A stretch of 12,561 nucleotides of DNA from Promethearchaeia archaeon (GTDB lineage Archaea; Asgardarchaeota; Lokiarchaeia; Sigyniarchaeales; SOKP01), in contig JAHQWX010000016.1 of the NCBI GenBank assembly GCA_029856375.1, forward strand, positions 1 to 12,561, in the 5' to 3' direction. The translations under genes and the position numbers were made by a program. Below, in pieces: positions 734 through 8,882 of the stretch. Within the stretch, counting starts at the first letter, position 1. Each line of letters starts with the position of its first letter. A model generated the notes under the pieces. It was not told the DNA's origin. It did not search any database and saw nothing but the letters and a program-made list of their open reading frames with translations.

Positions 734-1807
734 TTACTCGGTTTTCACTCGTTTTTCAAATTCTTCAATGCCAATAACTATAGGGTTTTCGAGTTCTTCT
801 ATTTTTTTCGATGTATCTATCCTATAATTCCCTTCTAAATATTCAAGAGCCTGTTTAATAGAATCCTTAGCGTCGTGAAAATGTTTTAAGGGAAAACCAT
901 TATCTATAAGGAATTGCTCTTGTGGGTATGTCTCTAATGGAAAAAATTCAATAGAAGGAACACCTAACAAGGCAGACTCCCTAACCATTGTTCCCCCTCC
1001 CGTTAATACGAGCTTCGCAAAATACATTATTTGCGATAAATTCTCTAAACCTCGATAAACTAGTATTTTATCTTCCTTGATTCTGCTCTCAAATTTCTTC
1101 GTAAGAAAATCAAATTGTTCCTCGTTCCTCGTTATTATTAAAAATTTGAAATCGGTAGTTTTTTGAATAATCTCAGGGATAATTGTTGCTAACTGGGTTT
1201 CGTGTGGTTCCATTTCATTAACGAGATATCCTGCTTTTGTCGGCTCTGTTCGGCATATTACATAATTTTCTTTCGAGAGATTCAAGTTTTTAAGAATTTC
1301 CTCGTTGGGCTCAAAATTCGAAAGCCATCCAACTTCATCGATTCCGTTGAACCTAATAATCTTTTCTTCTTTCAATCCATACTCAAAATACCATTCTAAA
1401 GGAATGCATTTGGGAACAATAACTTGGTTTGCATAGGGCAATGTCATGGAACAAGGACCATAAGATCTCGGTTCATCGTTAAACATAATATTAGGAATTT
1501 GAAGACCAAACGAAACTCTTAGCGCCTCTGGACTTGTGATACAAAACAGAAACTCAGGATTTTCATTATAAATTATTTCGATTAACTCTGATAATCGTTC
1601 TGAATATGATCTTAATTTTCCAATCAGATCCTTACCACCATATTTACCTACGGGAATGTAATCTACGCCCCATTTATCCAAGAGATAAAAAGTTGAATCG
1701 AAATCCCTAGCTGTAATAAATACATCGTGAGACTCCAACAATTTATCGTAAAGCGACCTAAGCATCGTAACGCTCTTAGGTTCGCAAAAATCTAGCCAAA
1801 TTTTCAA
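734..1807 (-). CDS. DUF354 domain protein (GT-B-like fold, glycan-related)
   Basis: DUF354 proteins resemble GT-B glycosyltransferases and UDP-GlcNAc 2-epimerases and are common in archaeal and bacterial surface-glycan clusters; no reaction is firmly assigned. Here the family pattern is clear: an N-terminal KIWLDFCEP strand-loop, ITARDFDSTFYLLDKWGVDYIPVGKYGG, a mid-protein FNDEPRS (the family's ND-x-E/H region), and a C-terminal donor-site-like TGGGTMVRESALLGVPSIEFFP. The longest frame starts with an ATG at 1825, but I prefer the TTG at 1805-1807. It gives the usual family start (MKIWLD-) and lies 10 nt after a strong Shine-Dalgarno (GGGAGG, 1818-1823) that would otherwise fall inside the coding sequence. 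The product is then 357 aa (363 aa from the ATG). It follows the epimerase gene by 21 bp, so co-translation is likely. A sugar transferase or epimerase acting on a nucleotide sugar is an inference. Confidence 0.85.
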   Translation of the reverse strand: MKIWLDFCEPKSVTMLRSLYDKLLESHDVFITARDFDSTFYLLDKWGVDYIPVGKYGGKDLIGKLRSYSERLSELIEIIYNENPEFLFCITSPEALRVSFGLQIPNIMFNDEPRSYGPCSMTLPYANQVIVPKCIPLEWYFEYGLKEEKIIRFNGIDEVGWLSNFEPNEEILKNLNLSKENYVICRTEPTKAGYLVNEMEPHETQLATIIPEIIQKTTDFKFLIITRNEEQFDFLTKKFESRIKEDKILVYRGLENLSQIMYFAKLVLTGGGTMVRESALLGVPSIEFFPLETYPQEQFLIDNGFPLKHFHDAKDSIKQALEYLEGNYRIDTSKKIEELENPIVIGIEEFEKRVKTE

Positions 1808-1817
1808 AATTTTCACT

Positions 1818-1823
1818 CCTCCC
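1818..1823 (-). promoter_or_regulatory. Strong Shine-Dalgarno that decides the DUF354 start
   Basis: On the minus strand GGGAGG lies 10 nt before a TTG codon (1805-1807) and overlaps the upstream ATG at 1823-1825. Its position, with the family-typical MKIWLD N-terminus, supports initiation at the TTG. This is a visual match to the anti-SD core, not a scored prediction. Confidence 0.6.
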
Positions 1824-1828
1824 ATGAA

Positions 1829-2891: not shown

Positions 2892-3185
2892 TTATTTATC
2901 GCATTTACAGGGATTCGAATCGCAACTTAGGCATTTATTTGGATATTTATCAATTAATGCTTTCTCTAAATCAATATTGAGAATATTGGCAAGAGAGGAT
3001 GTCCAAGCAATAATATCTGCCAGTTCATCCGATATTTTTGAACGATTAAGATCCTTTTTATTTAAATTATCGGCTAGTTCGCCAATCTCTTCAACAAGCC
3101 AAATAAATGTCTTATAAACGCCCCTTTCCACATCACGATGATAATACAATTCGTTCATTAAAAGTTGAAAATCTGAAACTTTCAT
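2892..3185 (-). CDS. MazG-like nucleotide pyrophosphohydrolase
   Basis: A small all-alpha NTP pyrophosphohydrolase of the MazG/dUTPase-like superfamily, which hydrolyses (d)NTPs to NMP and pyrophosphate, often as a house-cleaning enzyme. The metal-binding pattern is visible: E32, E33 and E36 (WLVEEIGELADNLN) followed by E54 and D57 (SDELADIIAW), i.e. EExxE...ExxD. At 97 aa it is the single-domain form. The last 15 residues carry a cysteine cluster (C85, C88, C93, C95; KCLSCDSNPCKC), which suggests a small zinc-binding tail. It lies 43 bp downstream of sec61beta and 52 bp upstream of the epimerase on the same strand. Its substrate is unknown. A role in trimming nucleotides for sugar activation is possible but speculative. 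Confidence 0.85.
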   Translation of the reverse strand: MKVSDFQLLMNELYYHRDVERGVYKTFIWLVEEIGELADNLNKKDLNRSKISDELADIIAWTSSLANILNIDLEKALIDKYPNKCLSCDSNPCKCDK

Positions 3186-3228: not shown

Positions 3229-3429
3229 TCAGAAGAGCCAGCCAAAAATTCCAACGTGTGCGAGAATAACCACAACAATTAAAATAATAGCAAACGCTAT
3301 CGATGCAATAGGTCCAACTTTAATACCGATAGAGCTATCCTCAAAAAATCTCATAAGACCTGCCCCGCTCATGGGCATTGGGGATTTACTACTTCTTCTC
3401 TTGCTTCGACGAGATCTTCTTTGAGACAT
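3229..3429 (-). CDS. Preprotein translocase subunit Sec61 beta
   Basis: The small tail-anchored subunit of the archaeal SecYE-beta protein-conducting channel. The 66-aa protein has the family layout: a basic, serine/arginine-rich cytosolic N-terminus (SQRRSRRSKRRSSKSP), the conserved segment PMSGAGLMRFFEDSSIGIKVGP (about residues 19-40), then one membrane helix (about 41-62, IASIAFAIILIVVVILAHVG) ending in a short GIFGWLF tail. This segment is shared by archaeal and eukaryotic Sec61 beta. It is the first gene of the leftward run and is head-to-head with the ribophorin I gene, 154 bp away. Another open frame covers the same DNA on the plus strand (3107-3424), but its product looks non-native. 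Confidence 0.93.
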   Translation of the reverse strand: MSQRRSRRSKRRSSKSPMPMSGAGLMRFFEDSSIGIKVGPIASIAFAIILIVVVILAHVGIFGWLF

Positions 3430-3583: not shown

Positions 3584-5440
3584 GTGGATGCAACTATTTT
3601 TAAAATTAAAAGTGTTAAGAAGAGAAAAATCTATTCATTACTCAGCGTTTTAATTGTTTTCCTAATCTTAATCTCTTTAAACACTCAAAATACGCAAAAA
3701 CAAGTTGTATTCACAAACTCCGATTCTTTTGGCGCTTCCTCAATTATAGAAACTTTTGATGGCGTTGAAGTTTCAAGCACAATTAGGAGAGTTAATTTAG
3801 AAGGAACGGGTTTGGTGACGGTTAGAGATACTTTTACAGTGAAAAATGATAGGGAAAATCCATTATCCTTTATTAGTGTTGGAATTAATGAGTCTTATCT
3901 TGAAGATCTTGTGTATTATAACGCTGAAGGTTCTTTCTTACAAACTTTAGAGGTTCAATTTTCAGAAGAAATGATCGAATCATATAGAATGATTTATATT
4001 TTCTTCGATACTCCACTATTACCCTCAGAACAAACATCATTCACTTTCATTCAAACGTATCAGAATCTCTATAATTACACAGGTTCATATACGGAAGAAT
4101 ATTCGGATCAAACAATAGGATTTGATTTTTATATATATCCCATTCTTCCTTATCAAGTTGATGACGCACAAGTAACATTTTTCCTCCCTGAAGGTGGATT
4201 AAATCTTAGGGTATTTAACGATTCAGACGAAGAAGAAACAATCACTGAGGATTCTCTAAAATATTCGAAAACATCAATACCTACATTTTATTACGTTGCA
4301 TTAAAAGGAGAATTTACCTATACGCAAAGCACCAAATTACAATTGGATAGCGTCCAACGAAAAATTATGTTCAATTCGTTAGGATACTTGCTAGTTGAAG
4401 AGACTCATGAGATCCACAACACTGGACCAATACCTATTACAGGATTCACGATCTTAGTACCTGCAGAGGTTTCAGCGATCACAGTTTATGATGATATAGG
4501 TCCACTTACCGGAGCGTCCCTTGCAGGCTTCGAAAATCTAGATGGAAAAACTAAAGATTTAACTATAACTTTATCCACTAATCGTGTCAAACTAAATCCC
4601 GATGCAAAACTCAGATTTTATTTAACATATGCGCTGACATACGATAATTACCATATCTTTAATTGGATAGAACAATCAATTTCGATTAACATTCATCTTA
4701 TCACATGTGATTTTATTATCCTTGACCAAGAAGTTGAGATAATAATTGATGGCTGTGGTGATATTTTGTCGTTATCAGAACAACCAAAATCAATTGAAAG
4801 CCAAGGCGATGATGTAGTTTTGGTTTACGACTCTGGTATAGTCGCTCCTCTGGAAGATTATAATATAAAAATCATTTACACGCTTGATGTTATTGAAATT
4901 TTAATGAGACCCTTAATTTTTACAATTCTAATATTGTTAGGGTTAATAGGTTTCGTAATTTTAACGAAATCCCGAAAGCCTGAGGCAGAAGAAGACATTT
5001 ATAGAAAAGCGGATATCCCCGTCAACGAGTTGCGTCAGTTTTGTACCCTTTGTGAGGAGAGAAACGCCGTATTATTGGAAATTCTGCAAGCAGATGACGA
5101 TGTTAAAAGAAAGAAATTAACAAAAAAGAAATATATTAATTTAATTAAAAAGTGCGAGGCAAGAATTAAAACGCTTGATGATGATATCGTGCCTCTCAGA
5201 AAATTATTAGAAGAATCGACAAACACTTTTGATAACACATTTAAAAAGTTCGACGACTTAGAAGCAAAAAGAATAAGTCTTAAAGATAGTATTAATCTAT
5301 TGGAAAACAGATATAAACAAGGAAGAATGCCATCTAGGGAAGCTTATGAAAAATTACTAAGAGATTTGCTTAAACAACGAGATAAAATTAAAAAGGCGGT
5401 TGACCGCCTTGTAAATGAGATGAAAGCTTATTTAATTTGA
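3584..5440 (+). CDS. Ribophorin I (OST1) homologue, oligosaccharyltransferase subunit
   Basis: A homologue of ribophorin I, a non-catalytic subunit of the eukaryotic oligosaccharyltransferase that N-glycosylates proteins at the translocon. Its 618 aa are laid out as in human RPN1. A basic N-terminus and hydrophobic stretch (about 16-33) form a signal peptide or anchor. Two extracellular beta-rich halves follow (about 58-245 and 250-435), with VYDDIGPLTGAS (301-312) and LRFYLTYALTYDNYHIFNW (343-361) matching RPN1's YYRDEIGNVSTS and its THYIVGYNLPSYEYLY region. One membrane helix lies at 441-461, and a charged helical cytosolic domain at about 462-618. Three N-glycosylation sequons (N102, N164, N212) and two cysteines (C375, C391) lie outside. 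GTG is the first possible start, two codons after a stop. The gene heads a rightward run with a Trm112-like gene. Ribophorin I homologues are established in Asgard archaea; the assignment here is by recall of RPN1, not a search. Confidence 0.88.
   Translation: MDATIFKIKSVKKRKIYSLLSVLIVFLILISLNTQNTQKQVVFTNSDSFGASSIIETFDGVEVSSTIRRVNLEGTGLVTVRDTFTVKNDRENPLSFISVGINESYLEDLVYYNAEGSFLQTLEVQFSEEMIESYRMIYIFFDTPLLPSEQTSFTFIQTYQNLYNYTGSYTEEYSDQTIGFDFYIYPILPYQVDDAQVTFFLPEGGLNLRVFNDSDEEETITEDSLKYSKTSIPTFYYVALKGEFTYTQSTKLQLDSVQRKIMFNSLGYLLVEETHEIHNTGPIPITGFTILVPAEVSAITVYDDIGPLTGASLAGFENLDGKTKDLTITLSTNRVKLNPDAKLRFYLTYALTYDNYHIFNWIEQSISINIHLITCDFIILDQEVEIIIDGCGDILSLSEQPKSIESQGDDVVLVYDSGIVAPLEDYNIKIIYTLDVIEILMRPLIFTILILLGLIGFVILTKSRKPEAEEDIYRKADIPVNELRQFCTLCEERNAVLLEILQADDDVKRKKLTKKKYINLIKKCEARIKTLDDDIVPLRKLLEESTNTFDNTFKKFDDLEAKRISLKDSINLLENRYKQGRMPSREAYEKLLRDLLKQRDKIKKAVDRLVNEMKAYLI
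5393..5410 (+). repeat. Perfect 7-bp inverted repeat within the end of ribophorin I
   Basis: AAGGCGG (5393-5399) and CCGCCTT (5404-5410) are exact reverse complements around a 4-nt TTGA loop. They form a GC-rich hairpin in an otherwise AT-rich stretch, 30 bp before the stop codon. It encodes part of KKAVDRLVN, so it may be incidental. No T-run follows directly. Confidence 0.45.
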
Positions 5441-5511
5441 ATTATCAAAAAAATTCCAAGAACAACGTTTAATTTTAATAATTAACGACACATTTATTTT
5501 AATTGATTAAA

Positions 5512-6189
5512 ATGAAAATTTGGCTTCAAGAAATTCTAGCATGTCCCATCGACAAGCACTATCCTTTAGAATTATTAATATTAAAATGGGAAACAATAAC
5601 TGAAGAAATTGAGTATTTTTGGAAAACTTACCAAGACAAAAATATTCAAGAAATTGAAAAGGAGGACATTTTGAAAATTTCTGAAGAGAAAAATGATATT
5701 AAAGTGAGAGATAACATCGTTCTAAAATCCACAAGTATAGTTGAGTATTTAAAGTTAATTCTTGAAAGCATTCTAGAGTTAAGGAATGTTAAAGACCTCA
5801 CAGATGTAAAATTTATAGAAGTCATTCTTAGTTTATTGCAAAATATCGTAAAAGAAAAAATTGAAGCTACACTATATGCAATTCCCAACGAAAAAAACAT
5901 TGAAAAGCTGAAAAAGAACTTCAAGGACATTCTACCTGATTTGTACCTAATCAACAAAATTAAAGTTGATGCCGAAATTAAAGAAGGTCTTTTGTTCTGT
6001 TCTAAATGTAACAGATGGTATCCAATAATCGATACCATCCCCCAAATGCTCCCAGATAAATACAGAAATAAAAAAGAAGAGTTAAAGTTCCTTAAAACTT
6101 GGAGTAAAGAATTAGACGAGATAAATTTCTTGCAGAAAGAATTAGCGCCTCATAAAATTAAAGCCAAAAGCAATGATTCAAAAAATTAA
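5512..6189 (+). CDS. Trm112-like zinc-ribbon protein, long form
   Basis: Trm112 is a small zinc-ribbon protein that binds and activates several SAM methyltransferases acting on tRNA, rRNA and release factor. This protein has the split ribbon at its two ends: MKIWLQEILACPIDKHYPLEL at the N-terminus and EGLLFCSKCNRWYPIIDTIPQMLPDKY near residues 159-182, matching yeast Trm112 EGEMKCRNCGHIYYIKNGIPNLLLP. A helical insert of roughly 130 residues lies between them, much longer than in the roughly 60-aa short archaeal forms and longer than in yeast. The first knuckle reads C11-P-I-D14 in place of CPxC, while CxxC is intact in the second. The ATG at 5512 (226 aa) is preferred to a TTG at 5503 because the family starts MK-. 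It follows ribophorin I by 71 bp, and its end overlaps the longest frame of the methyltransferase by 17 bp. Confidence 0.82.
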   Translation: MKIWLQEILACPIDKHYPLELLILKWETITEEIEYFWKTYQDKNIQEIEKEDILKISEEKNDIKVRDNIVLKSTSIVEYLKLILESILELRNVKDLTDVKFIEVILSLLQNIVKEKIEATLYAIPNEKNIEKLKKNFKDILPDLYLINKIKVDAEIKEGLLFCSKCNRWYPIIDTIPQMLPDKYRNKKEELKFLKTWSKELDEINFLQKELAPHKIKAKSNDSKN

Positions 6190-7517: not shown

Positions 7518-8882
7518 GTGCAGACATTCTCAGAATACAATTTTGGAATATTTGAGATAATAACCTTAATTATATTGTTTGGAATCTCTTTTTTAGCGAC
7601 CTATTTTATTGTACCGCTTGTTATGAAGTTCGCGAGATCAAGAGGATGGATCGGGATAGACATCCATAAACTAGAAAAACCCGAAGTACCAGAATCTGGG
7701 GGGATAAGCATTGCATTAGGATTGGTAATTTCCCTTGTAATTTCGATATTTATATTCCCAACTCTTATCAATGAGATTTTGGTTATTCTCCTTACCGTAA
7801 TAATCGCGAGTATTATTGGAATAATTGATGATCGAATCAAATTATCTTCCTTGGAAAAGACAGCCCTTACAATTATTAACGGTGGACCGATATTTTTGCT
7901 ATATTATGTGGGATTTATTGAATATCAAAGTCCCACCATTCCAATCTTAGGCTCTCTACGATTGACATTAATATATCCCTTAGTAACTCCAGTAATTATT
8001 GCTGTTACTAGTAATACCGTGAATATGCTAGAAGGCTACAACGGAGAGGGTTCTGGGACTTGCCTCATCGCCGTGATTTTTATGTTAATTTCAGGTATAA
8101 TTTGGGGTTCGGCACAAGCTGTTATATACTCAGTTCCTTTTATCGCAATTTTACTCGCGTTTTGGTTGTATAATAAACATCCCGCGAAAATATTTCCAGG
8201 AGATATAGGAACGCTTACCGTGGGTTCAATGATTGGATGTATCGCAATATTCGGATCTATTGAGGTTCCAACATTTTGTGTGTTATTAGGGCATGTTTTT
8301 AATAGTTTTTATGTCATATCTTCTCTCAGAAAGCTTATGGAAAGTAGCGAAATTCAATTGGAAAAGAGCGATATAGAATTACTCGAGAATGGTAAAATCA
8401 AAGCATCGAGAGAGGATGATGCAGCAATGAGCTTACCGAGATTAATTCTCGCAAAAGGAGAGTTGACCGAATCAGAATTAGTTAAAAATTTTTACGCGCT
8501 TTCTCTGGTTTGTGGTCAATTTGCTATTGTTTCCGCTGTTACAATGGCTTGGTTTGTAATGTCTGAAGATATTCTTCTTATCGTATCGAGTGGAATTATC
8601 GTTGGTATAATTTCTGGTGGAATTATCCTTTTAACTTACTTGAAATTCCCCAAAATTAGAGGCATCGTTGTTATAATGGTTGTCTTGTTGACATGTGGAG
8701 TAGTCTTTTTATGGTTTATTGATATGGTAATAATGGAGTATTTTCCAAATCCTTATAATTTAGTAATAAGCGCCGTTTTCACAACCATAGGTTTAGGTAT
8801 TTGGTATTATATTGGATGCCTTCGTTATTTCTGGACCCAAATTGATAAAATGAAGAAAAGAGAAAACGCCGAGAAGAAATAG
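7518..8882 (+). CDS. UDP-GlcNAc:dolichyl-phosphate GlcNAc-1-phosphate transferase (ALG7/DPAGT1-like)
   Basis: A polytopic membrane enzyme that transfers GlcNAc-1-phosphate, or a related sugar phosphate, from a UDP-sugar to dolichyl phosphate on the cytosolic face, the first step of lipid-linked N-glycan assembly. PNPT/MraY-GPT motifs are present: GWIGIDIHKLEKPEVPESGGI (43-63), the DD motif GIIDDRIKLSS (101-111), NTVNMLEGYNGEGSG (166-180, compare NAINILAGINGLEAG in DPAGT1), FPGDIGTLTVG (226-236, compare VFVGDTF) and a cytosolic loop at about 268-310 ending DDAAMSLPRLILA. About ten helices are expected. At 454 aa it is longer than many archaeal AglH-type enzymes (300-350 aa as I recall) and has extra C-terminal helices (about 350-440). 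GTG is the start, with a weak GAAAGGA (7507-7513) upstream. It lies 47 bp after tRNA-Gln and is convergent with the GT4 gene. Confidence 0.88.
   Translation: MQTFSEYNFGIFEIITLIILFGISFLATYFIVPLVMKFARSRGWIGIDIHKLEKPEVPESGGISIALGLVISLVISIFIFPTLINEILVILLTVIIASIIGIIDDRIKLSSLEKTALTIINGGPIFLLYYVGFIEYQSPTIPILGSLRLTLIYPLVTPVIIAVTSNTVNMLEGYNGEGSGTCLIAVIFMLISGIIWGSAQAVIYSVPFIAILLAFWLYNKHPAKIFPGDIGTLTVGSMIGCIAIFGSIEVPTFCVLLGHVFNSFYVISSLRKLMESSEIQLEKSDIELLENGKIKASREDDAAMSLPRLILAKGELTESELVKNFYALSLVCGQFAIVSAVTMAWFVMSEDILLIVSSGIIVGIISGGIILLTYLKFPKIRGIVVIMVVLLTCGVVFLWFIDMVIMEYFPNPYNLVISAVFTTIGLGIWYYIGCLRYFWTQIDKMKKRENAEKK

Follow-up and report, generated by a model that had tools for sequence, protein, structure and literature searches.

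The window considered here is a 12,561-nt stretch of an Asgard archaeal genome (Promethearchaeia archaeon, contig JAHQWX010000016.1; assembly of 2.54 Mb, completeness 69.3%), and our subject is the OST1 (ribophorin I) gene that it carries. The open reading frame (ORF) lies on the forward strand at 3584..5440, starts with GTG and encodes 618 residues, of which 62–283 match the Pfam family Ribophorin_I (PF04597) at 38.6 bits, above the cut-off of 25. It is not a chance ORF: of the phylum's 227 genomes, 201 hold a match to the protein, among them 44 of the 45 good ones. The full-length AlphaFold2 model (11 sequences; predicted local distance difference test (pLDDT) 81.3, predicted template modeling score (pTM) 0.57) shows, in order, an N-terminal hydrophobic helix (residues 12–32; 3617..3679), a beta-rich extracellular domain (residues 58–434 by DSSP, enclosing the Pfam match; 3755..4885), a single membrane helix (residues 436–463; 4889..4972) and a helical tail, all on the forward strand. 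The N-terminal helix is probably a signal sequence, and the protein shows the OST1 ectodomain fold with one membrane helix after it, as a member of PF04597 should. An earlier note, made from the DNA letters alone, had proposed a membrane helix at residues 441–461; the single helix stands, with its boundaries shifted to those of the model.

The cytosolic C-terminal tail (residues 461–618; 4964..5437, forward strand) comprises 158 residues, including 38 lysines or arginines, 30 aspartates or glutamates and 4 prolines, in good agreement with the earlier description of about 157 charged, helix-prone residues. Structure prediction of the tail had been suggested as a check, and the tail-only model gives four helices, at residues 480–508 (5021..5107), 514–545 (5123..5218), 550–578 (5231..5317) and 585–615 (5336..5428). 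Helices 2 and 3 are continuous (514–578) in the full-length model and separate in the tail-only model. Several features of an RPN1-type domain are present: the tail is C-terminal, directly follows the membrane helix, is about 150 residues long and is predicted to form a four-helix bundle.

Searched alone against PDB sequences, the tail finds entry 8whn at 1.8e-36 (128 bits) in a nearly gap-free alignment. This entry is the OST1 cytoplasmic domain of the Asgard archaeon MK-D1 (WP_147663064.1), crystallised in 2024 and reported to have the same topology as the domain of human RPN1 (Carilo et al. 2024, PMC11417166). The hypothesis put forward for the tail is thus supported, and it is already published for a relative; the window OST1 joins a known kind of protein, and the idea of an archaeal ribosome-docking tail is already known. 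The match also argues against a reading without any link to RPN1, in which the tail would be a charged coiled coil of a generic kind or else a four-helix sensor of the chemoreceptor type (4HB_MCP_1). Although the sensor family, PF12729, is the top Pfam match of the tail region (8e-6), it reaches 20.9 bits with the whole protein and 26 bits with residues 441–618, against a cut-off of 27. In addition, the tail should face the cytosol, a location unsuited to a ligand-sensor domain, and the gene context is one of translocon and glycosylation. We regard this alternative as very improbable.

In the reading we favor, to which we assign a probability of roughly 0.78, the gene is an OST1 ortholog and the stretch encodes its cytosolic domain, a four-helix bundle that reaches the docked ribosome and holds oligosaccharyltransferase (OST) at the channel exit. 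OST1 would be held in the cell membrane by its one helix, with the beta-rich domain outside beside STT3 and the bundle inside, where it could reach the large subunit of a ribosome docked on SecY/Sec61; OST would thereby be kept at the channel exit and nascent chains could be glycosylated as they are threaded through. The gene, the domain order, the predicted four-helix fold, the match to the crystallised archaeal domain and its conservation are established in this analysis. The human RPN1 cytosolic domain contacts the 60S subunit according to a review (PMC6929149), bearing out the ribosome contact that the earlier note gave for the mammalian tail, and the MK-D1 tail is reported to bind human ribosomes, pulling down ribosomes of several purities with a negative ectodomain control (PMC11417166). 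By analogy, the window OST1 would bind its own ribosome. It is also conceivable, but improbable, that the same domain has a different main partner in archaea, bracing STT3 or other OST subunits or docking the signal recognition particle or a chaperone factor. Room for such a partner is left by the accessible passages of Carilo et al. 2024 (PMC11417166), where we found no test on an archaeal ribosome, and by one Thermoproteota clade that keeps OST1 without the tail, whereas the published pull-downs, the basic columns common to two phyla and the adjacency of Sec61 beta and OST1 in the window's relatives (see below) speak for the ribosome.

In Asgard archaea, the tail was found throughout the complete OST1 genes examined. 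The window tail alone finds the tail in all 50 genes of a set comprising L001–L030 (the window is L001) and 20 family representatives (L031–L050), with E-values ≤1.5e-4 and matches ending ≤12 residues from the C-terminus. Of the 20 representatives, 18 are more nearly identical to the window protein in the tail than in the ectodomain, and for the other two the identities are equal after rounding. A profile search covering 20 of the 26 unmatched Asgard genomes yielded OST1 in 12, short coiled-coil matches only in three and no match in five. Among 27 further genes (L180–L206), two at contig ends (L183 and L196) and one with an internal stop (L191) were set aside; the remaining 24 have 146–165 residues past the last hydrophobic stretch, and 20 of them are matched by an Asgard tail profile at E <1e-3, the other four (families f23 and f24) being divergent. 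With these 24 added to the 50, the tail is present in 74 of 74 complete Asgard OST1 genes.

The relationship to the human tail is less easily read. A profile of 21 Asgard OST1 sequences finds human OST1 at 4.6e-45, aligned over residues 28–606 with the tail included, but yeast Ost1 at 9.5e-20, aligned only up to residue 470 of 476. The earlier note was thus correct that yeast Ost1 lacks the tail and that the archaeal and human tails are close in length. Its further proposal, a profile comparison of the tail alone with RPN1, had a mixed outcome: human RPN1 is not among the best 60 matches listed for tail-only profiles of 21 Asgard or of 55 Asgard and Thermoproteota sequences, but in a direct comparison with the 55-row profile the human tail reaches 15.4 bits, a value attained by 0 of 1000 plain and 3 of 1000 heptad-preserving shuffles. 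The score against the 21-row profile is 12.4 bits (0/1000 plain and 13/1000 heptad-preserving shuffles). Full-length human OST1 scores 153.8 with its tail, 143.2 without it and 147.3 with the tail reversed, and 153.8 is reached by 0 of 1000 plain and 12 of 1000 heptad-preserving tail shuffles. The sequence signal between human and archaeal tails looks real but weak, and the case for homology is carried mostly by position, length and fold class. Fold alignment of human residues 460–607 with the window tail gives 5.8 Å over 146 residues at 14% identity, a fit that does not clearly exceed the background for helical bundles. The fold match of the full-length protein does not bear on the tail, which tempers our confidence.

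Could the human RPN1 tail have been gained independently, with simple helical bundles converging at the same protein end and only the archaeal tails being homologous to one another? We consider this unlikely, given the same place after the membrane helix, the near-equal length (human residues 460–607; 155–168 residues in the archaeal representatives), a human tail score above all plain and 997 of 1000 heptad shuffles, and the published topology and ribosome binding (PMC11417166). The grouping of eukaryotic OST1 with Asgard proteins in the ectodomain tree described below (91, not starred) and the presence of the tail in every complete Asgard gene examined point the same way. The findings favor homology of the tail with that of human RPN1, as had been proposed, and help to date the domain; we infer that the two tails share one ancestor.

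The tail extends beyond Asgard archaea. In a sample of 398 Thermoproteota genomes, from the phylum of Culexarchaeum nevadense, the Asgard OST1 profile matches 202. Among the 140 with E ≤4.7e-10, 109 are aligned through the tail (from the membrane helix, at profile position 420 or before, to at least 550 of 588); 14 proteins are short, a further 12 are long but leave the tail unaligned, and five are of other kinds; OST1 with a tail is therefore present in at least 109 of the 398 genomes. The Asgard tail-only profile matches 30 of the 30 best Thermoproteota ORFs at 4e-25 or better. The 14 short proteins end after the membrane helix, 17–50 residues beyond the last hydrophobic stretch. Those named are Methanomethylicus mesodigestus (G227), M. 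oleisabuli, Methanosuratincola subterraneus, a Methanomethylicota and a Methanomethyliaceae genome, which we take to form one group. NCBI taxonomy places Methanosuratincola in the class Methanosuratincolia of Thermoproteota. OST1 was not found in five other genomes with Methanomethylicus-type names (L081, L099, L105, L112 and L114). In four Thermoproteota proteins (L172, L173, L174 and L176) the last hydrophobic stretch is followed by 143–146 residues, which the tail profile does not recognise (E 0.12 or worse); their C-termini are either strongly diverged or replaced.

A tree built from the ectodomain and membrane helix without the tail (76 rows; a quick method without bootstrap, with many long branches and no assigned root) places 13 of the 14 tail-less OST1, including all five named, in one branch (Shimodaira–Hasegawa-like approximate likelihood ratio test 100), with L166 elsewhere. 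Human and yeast OST1 fall together (99) among Asgard rows, the human sequence being one of the rows with odd letter make-up. At least three changes are required to account for tail presence and absence on this tree. The simplest reading is that an old tail was lost in the Methanomethylicus/Methanosuratincola clade and in yeast, and perhaps, less surely, once more in L166. More than one loss of the tail seems likely, although transfer between the phyla may also have taken place.

The tail itself may carry a trace of its origin. The turn of hairpin 1 (residues 509–517; 5108..5134) is basic at 509, 511, 514 and 515, with I or L at 512 and Y517; the turn of hairpin 2 (residues 576–588; 5309..5347) has R576, Y577, a basic residue at 578, I or M at 582, S584 and Y588. 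Both assignments, on the forward strand, come from the conserved columns of an alignment of tails (21 from Asgard, 34 from Thermoproteota), where 17 columns have at least 60% lysine or arginine in the two phyla alike. Seven of these lie at or near the two turns (509, 511, 514 and 515; 576, 578 and 590), adjoined by the conserved tyrosines 517 and 588, and the other ten are scattered over the helices, loop and linker. The two hairpins, turns included, align in register (hhalign probability 95.5, score 39.6; reached by 0 of 150 heptad-preserving column shuffles, the best at 37.9), and this alignment suggests that the tail is a doubled helix hairpin. The two turns are expected at the same end of the bundle, which would be the end that meets ribosomal RNA. 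We consider it fairly probable that the tail was already present in OST1 of the Asgard–Thermoproteota ancestor, was born by duplication of a basic-turn hairpin and was lost independently in the Methanomethylicus/Methanosuratincola clade and in yeast. If the tail is indeed older than Asgard archaea, the link between glycosylation and translating ribosomes would be an archaeal invention rather than one of the endoplasmic reticulum (ER).

The gene neighbors, compared across 106 OST1 loci (56 from Thermoproteota), fit a translocon role for OST1. A Sec61 beta gene (3229..3429, reverse strand; PF03911, 4.9e-12) lies upstream of and divergent from OST1, as it does in all 33 loci L001–L033 (33/106), with 5–539 bases between the open frames and, in L026, one more ORF in between; it was not found beside OST1 in L034–L050 or the 56 Thermoproteota loci. 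An MraY/Alg7-type polyprenyl-phosphate sugar-1-phosphate transferase (7518..8882, forward strand; PF00953, 3.4e-30, with NCBIfam MraY models matching under their cut-off) possibly performs the first step of lipid-linked glycan assembly, and relatives lie near OST1 in 32 of the 106 loci, including Thorarchaeota (L049 and L050) and Thermoproteota (L174 and L179). A DUF354 gene (734..1825, reverse strand; PF04007, 4e-48), putatively glycosyltransferase-like from weak secondary matches, has relatives in 14 of the 106 loci, some of them in Thermoproteota. The window genome also encodes STT3, and it has an OST3/6 match, from a family that also matched 5 of 14 control genomes, one over the cut-off. 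Two further neighbors recur. A Trm112-like protein (5503–6189, forward strand; relatives in 39/106 loci) is probably split by a long insert, because its match to a 40-position profile is spread across residues 10–177, and a MazG-like pyrophosphohydrolase (2892–3185, reverse strand; relatives in 32/106 loci) adjoins Sec61 beta.

OST1 of Thorarchaeota is mostly about 930–1010 residues long, because the ribophorin ectodomain is preceded by two further domains, a prolyl isomerase of the FKBP type (PF00254) and an Ig-like one (PF17957). Both families score above cut-off in L049 (3974–6946, reverse strand) and below it in L050 (2597–5599, forward strand). PF00254 is present in 95 of 120 proteins (counted by eye) among the matches listed of 219 Thorarchaeal OST1-type proteins, and in family f28, among the matches listed, 35 of 36 rows have an ORF of at least 884 residues, G179 having 588. 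Databases label many of these proteins FKBP-type isomerases, and a literature search on Thorarchaeota, FKBP and ribophorin returned no paper joining Thorarchaeota and FKBP among the matches listed. Human FKBP11, a separate protein, is reported to adjoin OST-A at the ribosome-bound translocon (PMC12804085). The fusion suggests that a folding factor is linked to the site of glycosylation and docking.

Meyer et al. 2022 (PMC8993221) call ribophorin mammalian only in the passage available, a passage of Lombard 2016 (PMC4973528) reports that archaeal homologs of non-catalytic OST subunits were not found, and for Asgard archaea Eme et al. 2023 (PMC10307638) give Ost1 and Ost3 as previously known and contribute further subunits. 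Carilo et al. (PMC11417166) mention OST1 in TACK archaea, and we found no statement on a TACK tail in the accessible parts of that paper. Three points go beyond the literature found: how old the tail is and where it was lost, its possible origin through duplication, and the fusion in Thorarchaeota. Since some archaea have the tail and others lack it, they offer natural test cases for the contribution of ribosome docking to N-glycosylation.

Four known systems are close to the window protein. The MK-D1 OST1 cytoplasmic domain shares with it 42% identity over 142 residues, the four-helix fold and the place after the membrane helix, but comes from another Asgard archaeon, and ribosome binding is published for MK-D1 whereas the window protein is known from sequence. 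Thermoproteota OST1 (G279; C. nevadense, G229; M. mesodigestus, G227) has the ectodomain and membrane helix, and 109 of the 140 genomes counted also align through the tail, but the tail is absent in 14, including G227, and unrecognised in 12. Human RPN1/OST1 (PDB 6s7o, 8b6l) has the same domain order, ectodomain fold and a helical cytosolic tail of near-equal length, but that tail is barely similar in sequence (14%) and the protein sits within a many-subunit ER complex. Yeast Ost1 (PDB 6c26) has the ectodomain and membrane helix in common with the window OST1, but ends at residue 476, tail-less.
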